From positions 1 to 64,000 of the forward strand of contig JAOADD010000054.1 in the NCBI GenBank assembly GCA_026417495.1: a stretch of 64,000 nt of DNA. Reading direction: 5' to 3'. Origin of the DNA: Ignavibacteria bacterium. Lineage in GTDB: Bacteria > Bacteroidota > Ignavibacteria > Tepidaquicellales > Tepidaquicellaceae. Below the pieces are notes generated by a model. It searched no databases. It had not been told where the DNA came from and saw nothing but the letters and a program-made list of their open reading frames with translations. Positions 20,723 through 57,125 of this stretch are shown here, piece by piece. How positions within the stretch are numbered: position 1 is the stretch's first letter; each line of letters opens with the position of its first letter. The position numbers were made by a program, and so were the translations under genes.

Positions 20723-22066
20723 TTAAACTTTTTTCAATCTGAATTTAATCCAATGCTTAATCAAATCATCAGAAAAAACTTCCCCAACTTTAAGATAATC
20801 ATTGTCATTTTCTAAATTTTCAAGAGCTTCTTCTAAGTTTTCAGGAGTTTCCATTGCAGATTCTTTTGCTGTAAGTTGTTCTTGAATTTCTATAGGTTCT
20901 CCAGGGTTAATATTTTTAATTATACCATCTATCCCTGCCATGAGAACTGCTGAAAAAGTTAGATATGGATTAGAATCAGCATCAGGTATTCTAAACTCAA
21001 CTCTTTTCCGCTTCGTATTTGTGGTTGTTGGTATTCGTATTGCAGAGCACCTATCAGATTTTGAATATGTTAAACTAACGGAAGATTTTTTATTTGATTT
21101 TAAACGAAAGTATGAGTCAAAAGAAGGATTTGTAAAAGCAAGTAATGATGGTGTGTGATGGAGTATACCTCCAATAAAATTAAGTGCTAACTCTGAAAGC
21201 CCCCCATACTTATCACCAATGAAAATATTTTTATTGTCCTTCCAAAGTGATAGGTGTATGTGAAGTGTATTGTCTAAATTTTCAAAAATTGGTTTTGAAG
21301 TAAAAGTTGCTGTTTTATTAAAAAAGTTTGCTACATTTTTTACAATGTTTTTAAAAATCATAAAAACATCAGCTGACTCAACCAATGAAGAATACTTAAA
21401 ACTTATTTCATTCTGCCCTACAAAAGCTGACTCACAATGATGTCTTTCTACTTCAATTTCATTTTTTAAAAGTTTTTCAACAATAATATTTCTTATTTCA
21501 TAATATTTATCTTCAGGGGGAGTTAATAAATATCCATGCTTGTCATACTCAGTTTGAATCTTTGAAATAAAATCTTTTTTCTCAAGTAAATTATCTAAAT
21601 AATCCTCTGATGATTCAAAAATGAAAAATTTTGATTCTGCACCAATAAAAACTTTATCAGCTATATTTAAGTGAGAAATGTATTCAATAGATTTTTTAGC
21701 AACACTTCTTGGATCATACTTGAAAGGTTTTTTATCAATAGGATCGTATATATCACAAATTATAAAAACGGTTGTAGGTTCCAAAACCGTATCAATACGA
21801 GCTGTTGAAGGATCAGGAATAATTGTTAAATCAGAATCTCTCTTTAGTTTCCAATTACAAATTAAAGAACCATCAATAGTAAAACCTTCAAAAAATGTAT
21901 CTCGCTCTAACTGTCCAACGGGAATTGTAAACTGGCGCCATTCTCCTGACAAATCCGTAAATCTGAAATCAACATTCTTAACCTCTTTTTCTTTAATTAA
22001 TTTAAAAACATCATCTATCAACTTAATTCTCTTAAGTTGTTCTTCTTTAAAGGATTTATTATCCAT
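20723..22066 (-). CDS. Degenerate glutamine synthetase paralogue, probable pseudoenzyme
   Basis: 447 residues, clearly of the GSI fold along its whole length (KPFKYDPRSVAKKS, VGQNEISFKY, GDKYGGLSELALNFIGG, RVEFRIPDADSNPYL). Compared with the well-studied enterobacterial enzyme several active-site positions are changed. The metal-ligand pair in EPEFF reads ESKFF (E131 to K, here K146). The glutamate-binding NGSGMH reads LDNTLH (264-269). The ammonium-site Glu of PGYEAP is K327. E212, E220, H269, R321, R339, E357 and R359 are kept. The adenylylation Tyr region is absent. It follows an intact GS gene by 49 bases and is probably the last gene of the nifJ transcript. A regulatory or altered-substrate role is inferred. 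Confidence 0.85.
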   Translation of the reverse strand: MDNKSFKEEQLKRIKLIDDVFKLIKEKEVKNVDFRFTDLSGEWRQFTIPVGQLERDTFFEGFTIDGSLICNWKLKRDSDLTIIPDPSTARIDTVLEPTTVFIICDIYDPIDKKPFKYDPRSVAKKSIEYISHLNIADKVFIGAESKFFIFESSEDYLDNLLEKKDFISKIQTEYDKHGYLLTPPEDKYYEIRNIIVEKLLKNEIEVERHHCESAFVGQNEISFKYSSLVESADVFMIFKNIVKNVANFFNKTATFTSKPIFENLDNTLHIHLSLWKDNKNIFIGDKYGGLSELALNFIGGILHHTPSLLAFTNPSFDSYFRLKSNKKSSVSLTYSKSDRCSAIRIPTTTNTKRKRVEFRIPDADSNPYLTFSAVLMAGIDGIIKNINPGEPIEIQEQLTAKESAMETPENLEEALENLENDNDYLKVGEVFSDDLIKHWIKFRLKKV

Positions 22067-22115
22067 AGATAAAATAAGATTATAAAATATCGATTGTTAA
22101 AATTTATTTTAATAA

Positions 22116-23654
22116 TTAGTTCTTATGAATATCCTTATGTAAAATTGTTTTTAACTTTTTAATTTTATTCTTACCTTTTAGAGTTGATAATTGTTTTCTT
22201 AATTTTTTATCATTTTCTCTCTCAAGAGACCAAATCGCATAATCTATGGCACTTTTAGAAAATATCCCTTCATATTCGTAAAGTTCTCTTTTCTGTTTTA
22301 AAATTTCAGCAGAACTTGCACAACTATCTGGTAGACTTTTTAATGTTTTTAGAATAGATTTATTTTTAAATATATTACCATGGACTTTGCACTTTTTAGC
22401 AATTTCGAGTGACTTCTCTGGATTAAGAAATCCCCAAAGTGCAGCCATAGTTATTCCCGCAAGTAATAAATGTGAATTAGCACTACCATCAGGTGACCTA
22501 AACTCAACTGTTTGCATATTATCAACTTCTATTGGTTCATCTGGACATTTAGGATTTAATATTTTAGCAAGGTTATTAATTTTTGACCATCCGAGTGGAA
22601 TTCTGATTAAAGCACTTCTATTTGAATCACTCCAACAAATTTTTGTTGGTGCTTCTTGATCTGGTACAAGCCGCAAATAAGAAGAAGCAACTCTATTACC
22701 AAAAGAAGTTAATGAATCTGCACATTCACATAAACCACCTATTAATTTTAATGTATTCTGAGATAATTCTTTATTATCATCAACGGTTATATTTTTCCCA
22801 TTTTGAATTAGTTTTAAATGTATATGCATTCCATTACCTGCTACACCTTCCTCGAGTTTAGGTGCAAAGGTTGCAAGCATTCCATGTCTTGCAGCAATAT
22901 TTCTAATTAGCCATTTAGTAATTACAATTGCATCTGCGGCATCTTCTACTGGTAATGAAAGTAATTCAATTTCCAATTGTTCACCAGAAAGACCGTTTAA
23001 TTCGGGAATAGGGCTTTGAATTTTTTCAATAAAACCAACTTCACTATGAGCATACTTTACATTATTTACAATTTGAGTTATTATTCTTAACATTTCAGAT
23101 AATATTCCGCAGGATTTTATATAGGGTCCTGATGCATGATATCCTCTTTGCTTAAGTGGATAATAAAATTCATTATCAGGTTTATAAAACAAATAAAATT
23201 CTAATTCACCAAATGCATGTAAATCTATTCCCGTGGTTTTTGAAAACAATCTACTTGCTTTCATTAATATACTATCAGGAGTAAAAGGTGCAAGTTCACC
23301 ATCAGCAGTAATGTACCTGCAAATGAAATCTAAACTCCCTTCTTGAAATGGATTAAAGAACGCAGTTTTCCAGATTGGAACAACATATAAATCAGATAAA
23401 GCAGTATCAATCATACCTTTGAAAAGTGATGAACCATCTACTCTCTCTCCTTCTGTTAAAACTATCTCCGCGTTCTTTCTTCCAGGCAATGGTATTTGCA
23501 TTTCTTTCAATTTACCATCAAGAGCAGTGTAATGGAAAGTTATTCTTTCTATATTTTTCTCTTGAATAATTTTTAGCAAATCATCTCTTGTAAAATCCTC
23601 TTTTGGTTTATTTAACAAAACACTTATGGGATTTGAAAGGGCATAATTATACAT
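22116..23654 (-). CDS. glnA: Glutamine synthetase, GSI type, apparently active
   Basis: 512 residues, longer than the usual 440-475. It makes glutamine from glutamate, ammonium and ATP. Active-site motifs are mostly complete: VDGSSLFKGM, FGELEFYLFY (both metal Glu, 150 and 152), HSEVGF (E205), GEQLEIE (E229), GNGMHIH (H277), YLRLVPDQEAP (R328, E334), NRSALIRIP (R346) and TVEFRSPDG. The extra length comes from an insert between HSEVGF and GEQLE, one between RIP and VEFR, and a C-terminal basic tail. It is 49 bases upstream of the degenerate paralogue, and mixed oligomers are conceivable. Confidence 0.92.
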   Translation of the reverse strand: MYNYALSNPISVLLNKPKEDFTRDDLLKIIQEKNIERITFHYTALDGKLKEMQIPLPGRKNAEIVLTEGERVDGSSLFKGMIDTALSDLYVVPIWKTAFFNPFQEGSLDFICRYITADGELAPFTPDSILMKASRLFSKTTGIDLHAFGELEFYLFYKPDNEFYYPLKQRGYHASGPYIKSCGILSEMLRIITQIVNNVKYAHSEVGFIEKIQSPIPELNGLSGEQLEIELLSLPVEDAADAIVITKWLIRNIAARHGMLATFAPKLEEGVAGNGMHIHLKLIQNGKNITVDDNKELSQNTLKLIGGLCECADSLTSFGNRVASSYLRLVPDQEAPTKICWSDSNRSALIRIPLGWSKINNLAKILNPKCPDEPIEVDNMQTVEFRSPDGSANSHLLLAGITMAALWGFLNPEKSLEIAKKCKVHGNIFKNKSILKTLKSLPDSCASSAEILKQKRELYEYEGIFSKSAIDYAIWSLERENDKKLRKQLSTLKGKNKIKKLKTILHKDIHKN

Positions 23655-41447: not shown

Positions 41448-43208
41448 TTATTTAATAATTATCATTTTCTTAGTGTCAGTAAAGCCATCACAATCAAGCC
41501 TATAAAAATATAAACCCGCTGGTAAATCAGAAGCATCATATTCAATAATATAATTTCCTGGTTCTTGATAAGAATTCACTAATTTTGAAATTTCCCTACC
41601 AAGTATATCGAATATTTTGATAATTACAAATCCTGATTTTGGTATGTCATAACTTATTTTGGTCGTGGGATTAAAAGGATTTGGATAATTCTGATATAAT
41701 ACAAAGTTCTTTGGAATTTCAGTTGATTTTTTGGTAACTTCAGTTGTTACGGGATACCACATGAATTGCAAATTTGGTCTAATACTTGATGCTGTACCTC
41801 CTGTAATATCCACACAACCATCACCTGATATGTTATTTGCATTATGATAAACAGTATTTGTACCAGTATTAGAAGAATAAACTGTAGAGTTAGTACTCCC
41901 AACTGAATTGTTAAAACAAATTTCAATCAAAAGAGAATTTGGATAAGACCAAATAAATTGATTTTGTAAAGGTATGAATTGAACACCTGTGGCAGATGGT
42001 GCCCAATTACCATCAAAAACAGTAGTCCATCCTGTAGAAGTATAACCTGTCAGGGATGATTGAGTTGTATTTCTCATTTTGATTTTTAAACCATTAATAG
42101 TCTGAGTATTAACAGATTCAAAATTAAAACCGATAGTAAAGATATTTGCAGCAGACGCTCCTATAATAGAATTTATTTCACTTGCAAGGTACAATAAATT
42201 TGTTCTGCCATCAGAAAATTGAGTATTGAAAGGTATTGCGGTAATCTGATTTCCAGAACCCACACCTCCAATACCAGGTGCTTCATTAGTTCTTAAGATA
42301 GTTCCCAAATCACCCACGCAATAACCATAATTTGTGTTGGGTATAAAATAAACTTGTTTTAAATTATTTGTTGTGTAATAATACTGGACCCAACTTTCTC
42401 CACCATTTGTAGATTTCAACATAGTACCATTATCTCCAACAGCCCATAGATTAAAAGGATTAATTGCATAAATGGAATTAATTCTTTCGTAAGTACCAGT
42501 GTATACCTGCACAAAGTTAACACCACCATTAGTAGTTTTTAAAATTTTACCACTATCACCTGCAACAAAACCAATATTAGAAGTAATAAAATATACTGCT
42601 CTTAATGGAGAAGTAACTGGTCTTGAATAAGAAAAATTTGAACCACTATTACTAGTTCTGAAAACATATCCATATGTATCTACAACCCATGTTCTATATT
42701 CATCTAAACAAAAAACTTTTGAGTTATAACCAGGTACAGTATAAACATTATACCAATTCAAACCCCAATCAGTTGATTTGATAACATTACCATAATAATT
42801 TCCCATCCAACCAGCTCCTAAAGGAGTGAACATTATAGATGTAATCGCATAATTGTTAGCAGTAACATCAATCATAGTCCAATTATATCCACCATTAGTG
42901 GTTCTATATAATTTCCCATTTTGACAACCAATAAATCCAACTTGTGGATTGACAAAAAATACACAATTAAAATTAAATCCAATTGGTGCTGGTAAAGAAT
43001 ACCAATTAACACCAGAATTTGTGGTAGCCATTATCTTGCCCGCATCCCCAACAATCCAACCTTTAGTATAATCTGTCGGGTTATTTGTAGCAAAAAAAAC
43101 TCCATTTAAATTTTCGTAAGTACCACTATTTTGTAATATCCATCCAGATTGAGAATAACCAATAGAAAATGAGAATAATATTAAAAGAATTATTTTACTC
43201 GCTTTCAT
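41448..43208 (-). CDS. Secreted YCF48-type propeller protein with T9SS sorting domain
   Basis: 586 residues. The signal peptide ends near GYSQ (about 1-20). Residues about 25-310 hold seven or so blades with GKIMATTNSGVNW, GKLYRTTNGGYNW, GKILKTTNGGVNF and GTMLKSTNGGESW, a YCF48/BNR-like propeller. Residues about 330-490 are a beta-rich module also found in the M28 peptidase at 55044-57125 (LLYLASEI, IGFNFESV, TGWTTVF, LLIEICFNN). Residues about 500-586 are a type A T9SS domain (QNYPNPFNPTTKISY, FDILGREI, AGLYFYRL). It is probably a surface binding or structural protein with no visible catalytic residues. Confidence 0.88.
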   Translation of the reverse strand: MKASKIILLILFSFSIGYSQSGWILQNSGTYENLNGVFFATNNPTDYTKGWIVGDAGKIMATTNSGVNWYSLPAPIGFNFNCVFFVNPQVGFIGCQNGKLYRTTNGGYNWTMIDVTANNYAITSIMFTPLGAGWMGNYYGNVIKSTDWGLNWYNVYTVPGYNSKVFCLDEYRTWVVDTYGYVFRTSNSGSNFSYSRPVTSPLRAVYFITSNIGFVAGDSGKILKTTNGGVNFVQVYTGTYERINSIYAINPFNLWAVGDNGTMLKSTNGGESWVQYYYTTNNLKQVYFIPNTNYGYCVGDLGTILRTNEAPGIGGVGSGNQITAIPFNTQFSDGRTNLLYLASEINSIIGASAANIFTIGFNFESVNTQTINGLKIKMRNTTQSSLTGYTSTGWTTVFDGNWAPSATGVQFIPLQNQFIWSYPNSLLIEICFNNSVGSTNSTVYSSNTGTNTVYHNANNISGDGCVDITGGTASSIRPNLQFMWYPVTTEVTKKSTEIPKNFVLYQNYPNPFNPTTKISYDIPKSGFVIIKIFDILGREISKLVNSYQEPGNYIIEYDASDLPAGLYFYRLDCDGFTDTKKMIIIK

Positions 43209-53646: not shown

Positions 53647-55008
53647 ATGAATCTAAAACAATCACTAATATCATTTTCAGAAAATGGTAAACCAAATCAT
53701 TCAAAAAAATACAGAATCAGGAGAGTACTAAACTGGTTACCACTTGGACTGACTTATGCATTTCTCTATATGGCGAGATATAATCTCACCGTTTCGAAAA
53801 ACGCTCTCGGAAATTTAATGACGAAAGAAGACTTTGGAATTATATTTGCTGCTGGTACAATTACTTATGCTTTTTCATTTCTTATTAATGGTCCATTAAC
53901 TGACAAGTTCGGTGGAAAATCATCTATACTTGCTTCTGCAGGAGGCTCTGCTTTAATGAATATATTAATGGGTCTGTTCTTATATGGAATATTAGCTTTG
54001 AATTGGAATATTAATCTAACAATAATATTCTCTATATTATATGCGATGAATATGTATTTTCAAAGTTTTGGTGCAGTTGCAATTGTGAAAGTTAATTCTG
54101 CGTGGTTTCATGTTAAAGAAAGAGGAGTATTTGGTGGAATTTTTGGAATACTTATTTCTTTAGGATTATACTTCGCTTTCGACTGGAGTCAAATTGTTGT
54201 AAACACTACTGTTTCTATTAATCCAGAAAATCCTTCCCTCTGGTTCGTATTTTGGGTACCTGCTTTTATTTTATTATTGTGGTTCTTAATTGATATATTT
54301 ATTATTAAAGATCATCCATCTCAAGCAGGATACGAAAACTTTAACACTGGAGATGCAACTTCAGAAGAAGATGATAGAAAATATGGTCTTCTAGAAGTAA
54401 TAAAAAAAATATTCACAAACAAAATCATTATAATTGTCGGTCTAATTGAATTCTGCACAGGGGTAATCAGAAATGGTGTTATGCACTGGTTTCCTATTTA
54501 TGCAAAGGAAAATTTAGAAACAAATGTTGCCTGGAATTTTTGGTTAAATAATTGGGGGTTAATTCTTATGATTGCTGGTGCATCTGGTGGTATGCTTGCT
54601 GGATGGATGTCTGATAAACTATTTGGATCGAGAAGAGCACCTGTAGCGGGAATTCTATACACCACTATTCTGTTGTCCGCTATAGGTATGAGACTTACAC
54701 TTTATGATAATCCCATTGGACTTGGTGTATGCGTTTCATTAATATCTATCGCAGTTATTGGAACGCATGGAATGCTAAGTGGAACTGCTACTATGGATTT
54801 TGGGGGGAAAAAAGCAGCTGGTACAGCAGTCGGTTTAATTGATGGGCTGGTTTATTTAGGTACAGGAGTACAATCATTATCTCTTGGATTCATAACTACA
54901 CGAAATTGGGCTTATTGGCCAATATTTCTTATTCCCTTTATTTTAATTGGCATTTTTCTTACTATTAAAATATGGCACGCATTTCCAAAAGGCAAAACTT
55001 CACATTAA
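53647..55008 (+). CDS. MFS transporter, organophosphate:phosphate antiporter-like
   Basis: 453 residues with twelve predicted spans. The start NWLPLGLTYAFLYMARYNLTVSKNALG matches the GlpT/UhpT (OPA) pattern in which an Arg in span 1 binds phosphate. GPLTDKFGGKSSI is MFS motif A, and GMLAGWMSDKLFGSRRAP is its counterpart in the second half. Likely substrates are glycerol 3-phosphate or a related phospho-ester exchanged for phosphate (inference). It starts 13 bases after the cupin gene, and the M28 peptidase begins 35 bases after its stop. Confidence 0.85.
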   Translation: MNLKQSLISFSENGKPNHSKKYRIRRVLNWLPLGLTYAFLYMARYNLTVSKNALGNLMTKEDFGIIFAAGTITYAFSFLINGPLTDKFGGKSSILASAGGSALMNILMGLFLYGILALNWNINLTIIFSILYAMNMYFQSFGAVAIVKVNSAWFHVKERGVFGGIFGILISLGLYFAFDWSQIVVNTTVSINPENPSLWFVFWVPAFILLLWFLIDIFIIKDHPSQAGYENFNTGDATSEEDDRKYGLLEVIKKIFTNKIIIIVGLIEFCTGVIRNGVMHWFPIYAKENLETNVAWNFWLNNWGLILMIAGASGGMLAGWMSDKLFGSRRAPVAGILYTTILLSAIGMRLTLYDNPIGLGVCVSLISIAVIGTHGMLSGTATMDFGGKKAAGTAVGLIDGLVYLGTGVQSLSLGFITTRNWAYWPIFLIPFILIGIFLTIKIWHAFPKGKTSH

Positions 55009-55043
55009 TTAAAAAATTTCTTAGAAATCAAAACTATAAAAAG

Positions 55044-57125
55044 ATGAAACCCTTAAAACTTTTCCTCCTTCTTGTAATTACATTCTTGATTACTTTTAAT
55101 GCTATTTCTCAGGTAGCATATAACCCTTTTGTTGCTAACATAATGAACCAAGTAAATTCAGATAGTGTTAAGAAATATTTAAGACAATTAAGTGGAGATA
55201 CATCTTGCATAATTGGTGGGTCACCATACACCATTGCAACCAGATATTGGAACTCAACTGGTAATATATATGCCGCACAATACATATTAGAAAGATTCCA
55301 AAGCTTTGGCCTTACAAGTTGGTATCAGGATATTAATGCTACAATAAGGAATGTACTTGCAAAAAAAGTTGGTACTAAATATCCAAACCAGTATGTAATT
55401 ATTTGCGGCCATTATGATGATATGCCATCTGGTTCTACTGCTCCTGGTGCGGATGATAATGCTTCCGGCGTTGTATGCGTAATTGAAGCCGCGAGGTTAC
55501 TCGCAAATGTTAATTTACCTTACACAATAATTTTTGCAGCTTGGGATGAAGAAGAAAGAGGGCTATATGGAAGTAAAGCATATGCTGATACAGCATACGC
55601 AAAAGGTGATTCAATTATTGCTGTTTTAAATTTTGATATGATTGCGTATGATGGAAATAATGATGGTGCACTTGATATAAATACAAACTCCGCTTCCATG
55701 TCTCTCGCAAATGACTATTATGCAATTGTTAACTTATACCAACCTACTTTGGTTCCTCAAATTACTACTTCATTGTCAGGTGGAAGTGACCATCAATCAT
55801 TTCAAAACAGAGGTTATAAAGCAATTCTTGCTATAGAAGATAACAGTGATTTTAATCCTTACTATCACACAGTAAATGATAAATACCAATATGTAAATCT
55901 TCCATTTACTGTAAAAATGGTAAAGGCAGGGATAGCAGCACTTGTAACCATAGCTGGTGATTTCAAAATTACAATAAATCATACTCCTTTGTCCTCAGGA
56001 CCCAGCACTGGACCGAGAATTGCAACTGCTGTAATTAAATCTTCATATAAGATAGCAACAGGCTCTTATGCTCCAAGACTTTATTACAAAGTTAATAATG
56101 GACCATATAATTATGTAAATCCTTCTTATACAAATCTCGATACATATAAATTTACAATACCTGGACAACCAATGGGAAGCACAATTAATTATTATATAGC
56201 AGCACAAGATTCGGCAGGTACAATAATCGCTACATTACCTTCTGGTGGAAGTGGAATTAATCCACCTGGGACAACACCTCCGCCTACAACATTCAGTTAT
56301 GAAGTTGCGAATGTTAACATCGTAACTGTTGGTAATGGGACTGTGAGTGTTGGATATCCTTATTATACTTATTATATGGATTCCAGAACTCAATTATTAT
56401 ATTTACAGAGTGAAATGGTAACAGCAGGAGCCACCGCTGGAAATATTCATAAAATAGGTTTTAATGTAATAAGTAATTCAACACAACCCATGAACGGTTT
56501 TACAGTTAGAATGCAAAATTCTACTGCAACTTCACTTTCTGGTTGGATTACAACAGGTTGGACTGATGTTTTCTCGGGCACTTATACTGTACCTGGTACA
56601 GGGATACAATATGTTAATTTACAAACACCATTTTACTGGGATGGGGTTAACAATCTATTAATAGAAATTTGTTTCCACAATACTAGTTGGACATCAAATT
56701 CAAATGTTTATGCTACTTCTGTAACAGGAAGGGTATATCATCATCACCTCGACAACAGTAATGGTTGTCAGATGACAGGTTCAAGTTCAACTACTGGTAG
56801 ACCAAATATCACTATTTACTTCAATCTTACAACTGGAATTAGTAATAATAATGGAATCCCTAAGGTTTATGAATTATCTCAAAATTATCCTAATCCATTT
56901 AATCCCGTAACAAAAATAAATTATGCCATACCAAAGAATTCCTTTGTAACTTTGAAAATTTACGACTTACTAGGTAGAGAAGTAGCTACCTTAATAAATG
57001 AAGAAAAACCTGCAGGATATTATTCAATTGATTTTGATGCATCAAACCTTTCAAGTGGAATTTATTTCTATAGATTGAGCGCAGGAGATTTTATTAAGAC
57101 AATGAAAATGACATTAATGAAGTAA
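55044..57125 (+). CDS. Secreted M28 metallopeptidase with T9SS sorting domain
   Basis: 693 residues from ATG 55044; the open frame begins earlier at 54972 inside the transporter gene, but the signal peptide starts here (1-23, ending AISQ). The M28 aminopeptidase domain has all five zinc or catalytic positions: CGHYDD (H123), PGADDNASG (D138), WDEEERG (E169 and E170), NFDMIAYDG (D198) and the late His in YYHTVNDKY. A beta domain follows, then a module (about 435-600) shared with the protein at 41448-43208, then a T9SS tail with QNYPNPFNPVTKINYAIP. It is a likely surface or released exopeptidase. Confidence 0.93.
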   Translation: MKPLKLFLLLVITFLITFNAISQVAYNPFVANIMNQVNSDSVKKYLRQLSGDTSCIIGGSPYTIATRYWNSTGNIYAAQYILERFQSFGLTSWYQDINATIRNVLAKKVGTKYPNQYVIICGHYDDMPSGSTAPGADDNASGVVCVIEAARLLANVNLPYTIIFAAWDEEERGLYGSKAYADTAYAKGDSIIAVLNFDMIAYDGNNDGALDINTNSASMSLANDYYAIVNLYQPTLVPQITTSLSGGSDHQSFQNRGYKAILAIEDNSDFNPYYHTVNDKYQYVNLPFTVKMVKAGIAALVTIAGDFKITINHTPLSSGPSTGPRIATAVIKSSYKIATGSYAPRLYYKVNNGPYNYVNPSYTNLDTYKFTIPGQPMGSTINYYIAAQDSAGTIIATLPSGGSGINPPGTTPPPTTFSYEVANVNIVTVGNGTVSVGYPYYTYYMDSRTQLLYLQSEMVTAGATAGNIHKIGFNVISNSTQPMNGFTVRMQNSTATSLSGWITTGWTDVFSGTYTVPGTGIQYVNLQTPFYWDGVNNLLIEICFHNTSWTSNSNVYATSVTGRVYHHHLDNSNGCQMTGSSSTTGRPNITIYFNLTTGISNNNGIPKVYELSQNYPNPFNPVTKINYAIPKNSFVTLKIYDLLGREVATLINEEKPAGYYSIDFDASNLSSGIYFYRLSAGDFIKTMKMTLMK

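Follow-up and report, generated by a model that had tools for sequence, protein, structure and literature searches.

The locus raises the question of why a bacterium should encode, directly downstream of an apparently intact glutamine synthetase (GS), a second GS with a seemingly dismantled active site, and whether this second protein is decaying, has acquired another reaction or is kept for something other than catalysis. The window (the whole stretch of DNA analysed, 64,000 nt) lies on contig C44 of the host genome (G000; 2.19 Mb, 99.8% complete), in which the genes for the two proteins, P447 and D512, were the only GS-family genes found and in which no type III GS was found. Profile searches identified the Gln-synt_N and Gln-synt_C domains in both proteins, those of P447 being nearly full length and above the cut-offs (73.9 and 304.1 bits, respectively). 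In addition, P447 scored 413.5 bits against TIGR00653, the GlnA equivalog, short of the curated threshold of 429.15 bits, and 200.5 bits against the GGputSyn profile, far below its cut-off of 650.

D512 adjoins P447 on its upstream side in a same-strand tandem (Table 1). An earlier note on this DNA had described P447 as a paralogue beside an intact GS, and the intact neighbour does lie 49 nt upstream; however, D512 belongs to a separate deep subfamily (with N264A and R355T) and, at about 27–29% identity to P447, which is a type I GS (GSI), is a deep paralogue and not the source of a recent duplication.

Table 1. Features of the P447–D512 locus, with positions counted from the first letter of the window
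Feature	Position	Strand	Basis
P447, 447-aa orthologue of GSI (type I glutamine synthetase), putatively inactivated	20723..22066	minus	ORF, ATG start
Motif GAESKFF, P447 residues 142–148, n1 ligand E131 replaced by Lys (residue 146)	21623..21643	minus	calculated from residue numbers
Motif LDNTLH, residues 264–269, in place of NGSGMH	21260..21277	minus	calculated from residue numbers
Collapsed Glu flap RLKSNKKSS, residues 321–329, around K327	21080..21106	minus	calculated from residue numbers
Intergenic gap, D512 stop to P447 start, 49 nt, AT-rich	22067..22115	minus	
D512, 512-aa D-type member of the glutamine synthetase family, divergent, intact	22116..23654	minus	

Active-site residues of P447

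Residues are numbered as in E. coli GlnA (MG1655), which served as the ruler of the alignment and with which the numbering of P447 coincides in the C-terminal half. In P447, EPEFF has become ESKFF (E129 kept, P130S, E131K), NGSGMH has become LDNTLH (N264L, G265D, S266N, G267T, M268L, H269 kept) and PGYEAP has become SNKKSS, hence E327K. All three changes had been proposed in the earlier note, and the alignment confirmed them together with its list of retained residues (E212, E220, H269, R339, E357, and R359) and the E. coli-like spacing of the C-terminal half. Further losses were detected as S53L, H211C, and V213S, and P447 also keeps D50, Y179, E212, E220, R321, and R359.

We take E131, E212, and E220 to be the n1 metal ligands and E129, H269, and E357 to be those of n2. 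On this assignment, both degenerate copies, P447 and its counterpart in the congener G002, carry E131K at n1 with E212 and E220 retained, and retain all n2 ligands; in the glutamate-binding set both have lost N264 (N264L), G265 (G265D), and E327 (E327K/Q), with R321 and R359 kept. Twelve positions on the ATP/n2 side, the choice of which we take as established GSI knowledge (G127, E129, E207, H210, H269, H271, S273, R339, R344, K352, R355, and E357), are kept 12/12 in P447 and equally in the G002 copy. Previous studies have described E129, E131, E212, E220, and H269 as divalent-metal ligands of GS, N264, G265, and R321 as coordinating glutamate, and E327 and D50 as the acidic residues central to the flap and the ammonium site (PMC5403932, PMC6529630), and ATP and glutamate come into the GS bifunnel from opposite sides (PMC10799026). 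Read together with this bifunnel, the residue pattern indicates that P447 has lost one side selectively, namely the glutamate/ammonium/n1-metal half-site, and has kept the ATP/n2-metal half. The Lys at 131 may fill the place of the n1 cation.

Comparison of the substitutions with relatives

To place these substitutions, 35 canonical GSIs, drawn from the same class and from outside it, were compared, all of which (35/35) were invariant at the altered catalytic sites of P447. Among the 149 alignment columns invariant in this set, the two degenerate copies still had the canonical residue in 82, the same new residue in 26, and different new residues in 16, with 14 further columns altered in one copy only and 11 within deletions. 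S53L, E131K, H211C, V213S, and the changes of the 264–268 loop belong to the class with the same new residue (S53L, E131K, N264L, and G265D being identical in G000 and G002), and most of the E327 flap (V323, P324, E327, A328, P329, and N331) falls into the class with different new residues. Because the canonical GSIs are invariant at these sites and the congener shares nearly all of the changes, the substitutions of P447 are not due to chance, and as the replacements are mostly identical in the two genomes, most of them date to the common ancestor. The flap columns differ between the copies, indicating that the E327 flap is without constraint: E327 is lost in both, with Lys at site 327 in G000 and Gln in G002, so that only K131 is conserved. 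Thus, of the two lysines that had been proposed to mimic a cation, K131 survives as a candidate, but K327, in a freely varying loop, does not. Likewise, the random decay that would mark a dying duplicate was absent from E131K and the 264 loop but present in the E327 flap.

Orthology and history of the locus

The congener G001 carries an intact 484-aa GSI straight after its D512 homologue, with the same upstream genes (DHO-like and PFOR), and the single-contig genome of G002 carries a 454-aa degenerate GSI in the same place, the gap between the two GS genes being about 200 nt in G001 and 40 nt in G002. In the ML tree, the two degenerate proteins were sister to the G001 GSI (support 100/98), and their stem, at 1.19 changes per column (approximate, given the unusual letter composition of both proteins), was roughly eightfold the length of the G001 GSI branch (0.15). 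The D512 stem was ordinary (0.25 vs 0.21), without a burst on the same branch. The G001 GSI is 68–73% identical to the GSIs of other genera in the family, and P447 and its G002 counterpart are 45–55% identical to intact GSIs. By its phylogenetic position, P447 is the orthologue of the canonical GSI of the family, not a decayed twin of D512, and the sister relationship to an intact GSI together with the long stem indicates that it was the canonical gene that became inactivated, and that this took place within the genus.

The tandem of D-type and GSI genes predates this inactivation. In several other genera of the family the two types adjoin with the GSI intact, the GSI gene coming first in four genomes and the D-type gene first in another. 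The tandem thus occurs with intact GSIs both in G001 and in other genera and, having existed before the inactivation, cannot alone argue for a regulatory subunit. The recurrent adjacency suggests an older functional link rather than a regulation dependent on inactivation.

Across 197 genomes of the class, a degraded GSI without a canonical one occurred, among the matches listed, only in G000 and G002, in a survey that a dead GSI beside a live one would escape. Eleven of the genomes with low best scores were opened, and their proteins were D-type, type III-like or GS-like in some other way. One low-scoring 473-aa protein (D50A, E212D, R321G, and E327W, with an altered ammonium/glutamate site), from a 1.7-Mb genome that also had a type III-like GS match, was rejected as a dead GSI, being a different GS-like ligase. 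A TAG flagged within the degenerate G002 gene appears to be the stop codon at its end, as the reading frame is open with no internal stop.

Selection on P447

The degenerate form is known from two genomes, G000 and G002, and its frame is free of stops and frameshifts in both. Between them, the NG86 method gave a dN of 0.266, a dS of 1.63, and a dN/dS of 0.164 for P447; with dS near saturation, such ratios serve for comparison only, neighbouring genes being the controls. By the same method, dN/dS was 0.053 for D512, 0.030 for the DHO-like gene, 0.039 for PFOR, and 0.025 for GDH, and 0.16–0.19, similar to P447, for two other open neighbours (an ABC ATPase and a hypothetical protein). P447 evolves much faster than D512 (dN 0.27 vs 0.08). 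In neutral simulations of the P447 gene, a mean of 6 stops had accumulated at 0.1 substitutions/site and 24 at 0.8, with 0/200 runs surviving at each level. Identity between the degenerate copies varied by region, being 19/20 at 206–225, a segment that includes the shared, newly derived H211C, V213S, and D222S, but 5/15 at 321–335 and 19/52 at 391–445. The P447 gene is thus constrained, though loosely.

Neither a broken frame nor a dN/dS near 1, the marks of a decaying pseudogene, was found; as far as its sequence tells, P447 combines homology to GSI with lost catalytic residues and maintenance under selection, as a pseudoenzyme would. The idea of an active site that is dismantled but maintained is thereby supported, with the changes recurring in a second genome, the frame open and the ATP side untouched.

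Architecture and oligomeric state

Both degenerate copies lack E. coli positions 145–157 (13 residues) and 450–467. The latter form the C-terminal helical thong, which inserts into the opposite ring and joins the two hexamers (PMC6076278), and the former are part of the inter-ring insertion and lie near where a GSI-beta extension has been reported to give the rings stability (PMC10799026), with which they presumably overlap. D512 also lacks positions 139–166 and has a different C-terminal tail. The AlphaFold single-chain models were confident overall (pLDDT 83.5 for P447 and 85.9 for D512), and all PDB matches listed for them were GS chains, those of P447 being GSI. The full-length fold claimed for P447 was accordingly too strong. 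With the thong and part of the insertion missing, a normal P447 dodecamer is unlikely, and one hexamer by itself or a ring of mixed composition may be likelier; of the mixed dodecamer suggested earlier, the mixed complex is still plausible, but the normal dodecamer less so.

D512 and nitrogen metabolism

D-type proteins keep each catalytic residue checked except where the subfamily has characters of its own, among them N264A and R355T; they are about 511 aa long, with R355T and with AG[NS]G[ML]H in place of NGSGMH. In two genomes (99% complete), a D-type gene was the only GS-family gene found, suggesting that this subfamily may be sufficient alone for glutamine and that D512 is probably the working glutamine synthetase of the cell. 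Relatives of D512 at 43–45% identity occur on Bacteroides/Parabacteroides plasmids, where they are annotated merely as "glutamine synthetase family protein".

Profile searches found no PII, Amt or SBP_bac_3 proteins in the genus, nor GOGAT, the PF01645 matches being weak and the one within the window being IMP dehydrogenase. Two class-I amidotransferase ORFs of GMP/CTP synthetase size were above the cut-off in each genome with PF00117, the probe used here (PF00310 was a poor probe, without a match in any of six genomes). As GOGAT, PII, and Amt were not found in the genus and type III GS was not found in the host genome, the demand of GS–GOGAT appears to be gone, and since amidotransferases remain, glutamine is still needed, though not for GS–GOGAT assimilation. 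The lack of GOGAT, PII, Amt, and SBP_bac_3 proteins and the small number of class-I amidotransferases point to a reduced, amino-acid-scavenging nitrogen metabolism. A GDH gene lies within the window, which also encodes an amino-acid permease and secreted peptidases, so that uptake of glutamine or peptides is possible. The window further encodes Por secretion (type IX) C-terminal sorting domains (108–1070, 1108–2406, 41448–43208, and 54972–57125), consistent with a host of the Bacteroidota group.

Possible functions of P447

The explanation that we favour, with a little more than even confidence, is that P447 is the former canonical GSI of the genus, now selectively maintained as a pseudoenzyme and acting as a non-catalytic nucleotide-binding subunit, perhaps of D512. 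Glutamine would be made by the divergent D512 enzyme, and P447 would form a ring-type oligomer, bind ATP/Mg in the n2 half of its bifunnel and have the Lys that replaced E131 lying between E212 and E220, where the n1 cation would otherwise sit; it would then serve as a regulatory or scaffold subunit, for which the co-encoded D512 would be the most economical partner. The half-site loss, the open and constrained frame and the GSI fold retained in the model argue for this explanation; against it, D512 lacks a matching burst, leaving co-adaptation unsupported, the constraint on P447 is loose, the two genes adjoined before the inactivation, the degenerate form occurs in two genomes only, and the activity of D512 is itself a prediction. 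A more specific form, in which P447 would sit in mixed rings with D512 as an ATP-binding, energy-sensing controller replacing the apparently absent PII and adenylylation controls, is a tentative and rather doubtful proposal.

The same retention of fold, ATP side and constraint, and the same lack of co-adaptation in D512, would also suit a role independent of D512, for instance as a homohexamer that binds a transcription factor or some other enzyme in response to nucleotide, or as a structural protein. Precedents exist in the feedback-inhibited GS that acts on GlnR in Gram-positive bacteria (PMC9249791) and in the inactive lengsin (PMC2667176), but the neighbourhood offers no obvious gene for such a partner, those closest to P447 apart from D512 being metabolic or unrelated, and we regard such a role as unlikely, if well worth keeping in view. 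Phosphoryl transfer chemistry might in principle persist on the ATP/n2 residues together with E212, E220, R321, R359, D50, and Y179, so that P447 could be an ATP-dependent ligase for another acid or amine, with Lys 131 replacing the n1 metal. This substrate change, also raised by the earlier note, is disfavoured and in our judgement improbable: known GS-like ligases (GlnA3, GlnA4, and PauA7) show the reverse residue pattern, largely keeping the E131 and glutamate-binding residues lost here (PMC5403932, PMC6529630), the GGputSyn score is far too low (200 vs 650 bits), and the flap differs between the two degenerate copies.

A decaying gene that has yet to gain a stop codon, freed from selection as D512 took over and nitrogen demand fell, would explain the fast evolution, the variable E327 flap and C-terminal part (391–445), and would suit a small genome without GOGAT, PII or Amt. 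It is nevertheless quite improbable, given that both lineages are full length and in frame at a dS of about 1.6, that simulated neutral genes never survive even 0.1 substitutions/site, that dN/dS (0.16) equals that of two other open neighbours and that the derived residues near E212 and in the 264 loop are held constant. Least credible, to the point of being very improbable, is the view that P447 still makes glutamine with an active site that is simply atypical; the GSI profile score is high but under the curated cut-off, and E131, N264/G265, and the Glu flap, kept by every canonical relative examined, are lost.

Comparison with known systems

Few enzymes are older or better studied than GS, and textbooks describe how PII, adenylylation, feedback inhibition or 2-oxoglutarate regulates it. 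Here, a canonical GS has apparently been taken out of catalysis and retained as a non-catalytic protein, and one species of the genus has a live version at the same locus, so that G001 and G000/G002 offer a clean before-and-after pair for the question of how an enzyme becomes a regulator or scaffold; in addition, the little-studied D-type glutamine synthetases are pointed to as sufficient alone. No bacterial GS pseudoenzyme was found in the literature searched, which comprised open-access papers.

P447 resembles GSI (GlnA, GSI-beta; E. coli/Salmonella, Synechocystis 3ng0) in its fold, its beta-grasp and catalytic domains and its ATP/n2 residues, but differs in lacking the n1 ligand, the glutamate-binding loop, the Glu flap, part of the inter-ring insertion and the thong. 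Its tandem neighbour D512 represents the D-type GS family of Bacteroidota, a separate deep subfamily with an intact core. The ligases GlnA3/GlnA4 of Streptomyces, PauA7, and PuuA are, like P447, GSI-derived with an altered flap residue 327. However, GlnA3, GlnA4, and PauA7 retain E131 together with almost all of the residues that bind glutamate, with the ammonium site and E327 changed (PMC5403932, PMC6529630), and the polyamine/ethanolamide ligases (GlnA3, GlnA4, and PuuA) change the ammonium site D50/Y179/E327, whereas P447 keeps D50 and Y179 and loses E131, N264, and G265. Dead paralogues that activate a live partner are described for the trypanosome AdoMetDC prozyme and the deoxyhypusine synthase pair (PMC5201418, PMC3663545). 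As in these pairs, a dead and a live homologue share one genome here, moreover in tandem, but heteromers have been demonstrated for those pairs, whereas the partnership of P447 and D512 (about 27–29% identity) is a proposal.

Among the 38 PDB matches of P447, the weakest (E 2.9e-10) was 2j9i, GLUL domain-containing protein 1, which we take to be lengsin, compared with 6.3e-105 for the Synechocystis GSI. Being far weaker than the matches to bacterial GSI, it indicates that P447 is not closely related to lengsin. Lengsin, of the vertebrate lens, is an inactive, GSI-derived pseudo-glutamine synthetase that has kept its fold (PMC2667176). Both proteins thus derive from GSI and have lost catalysis (lengsin) or catalytic residues (P447), but lengsin is eukaryotic and described as dodecameric, whereas P447 is bacterial and has lost the parts that lock the rings together.
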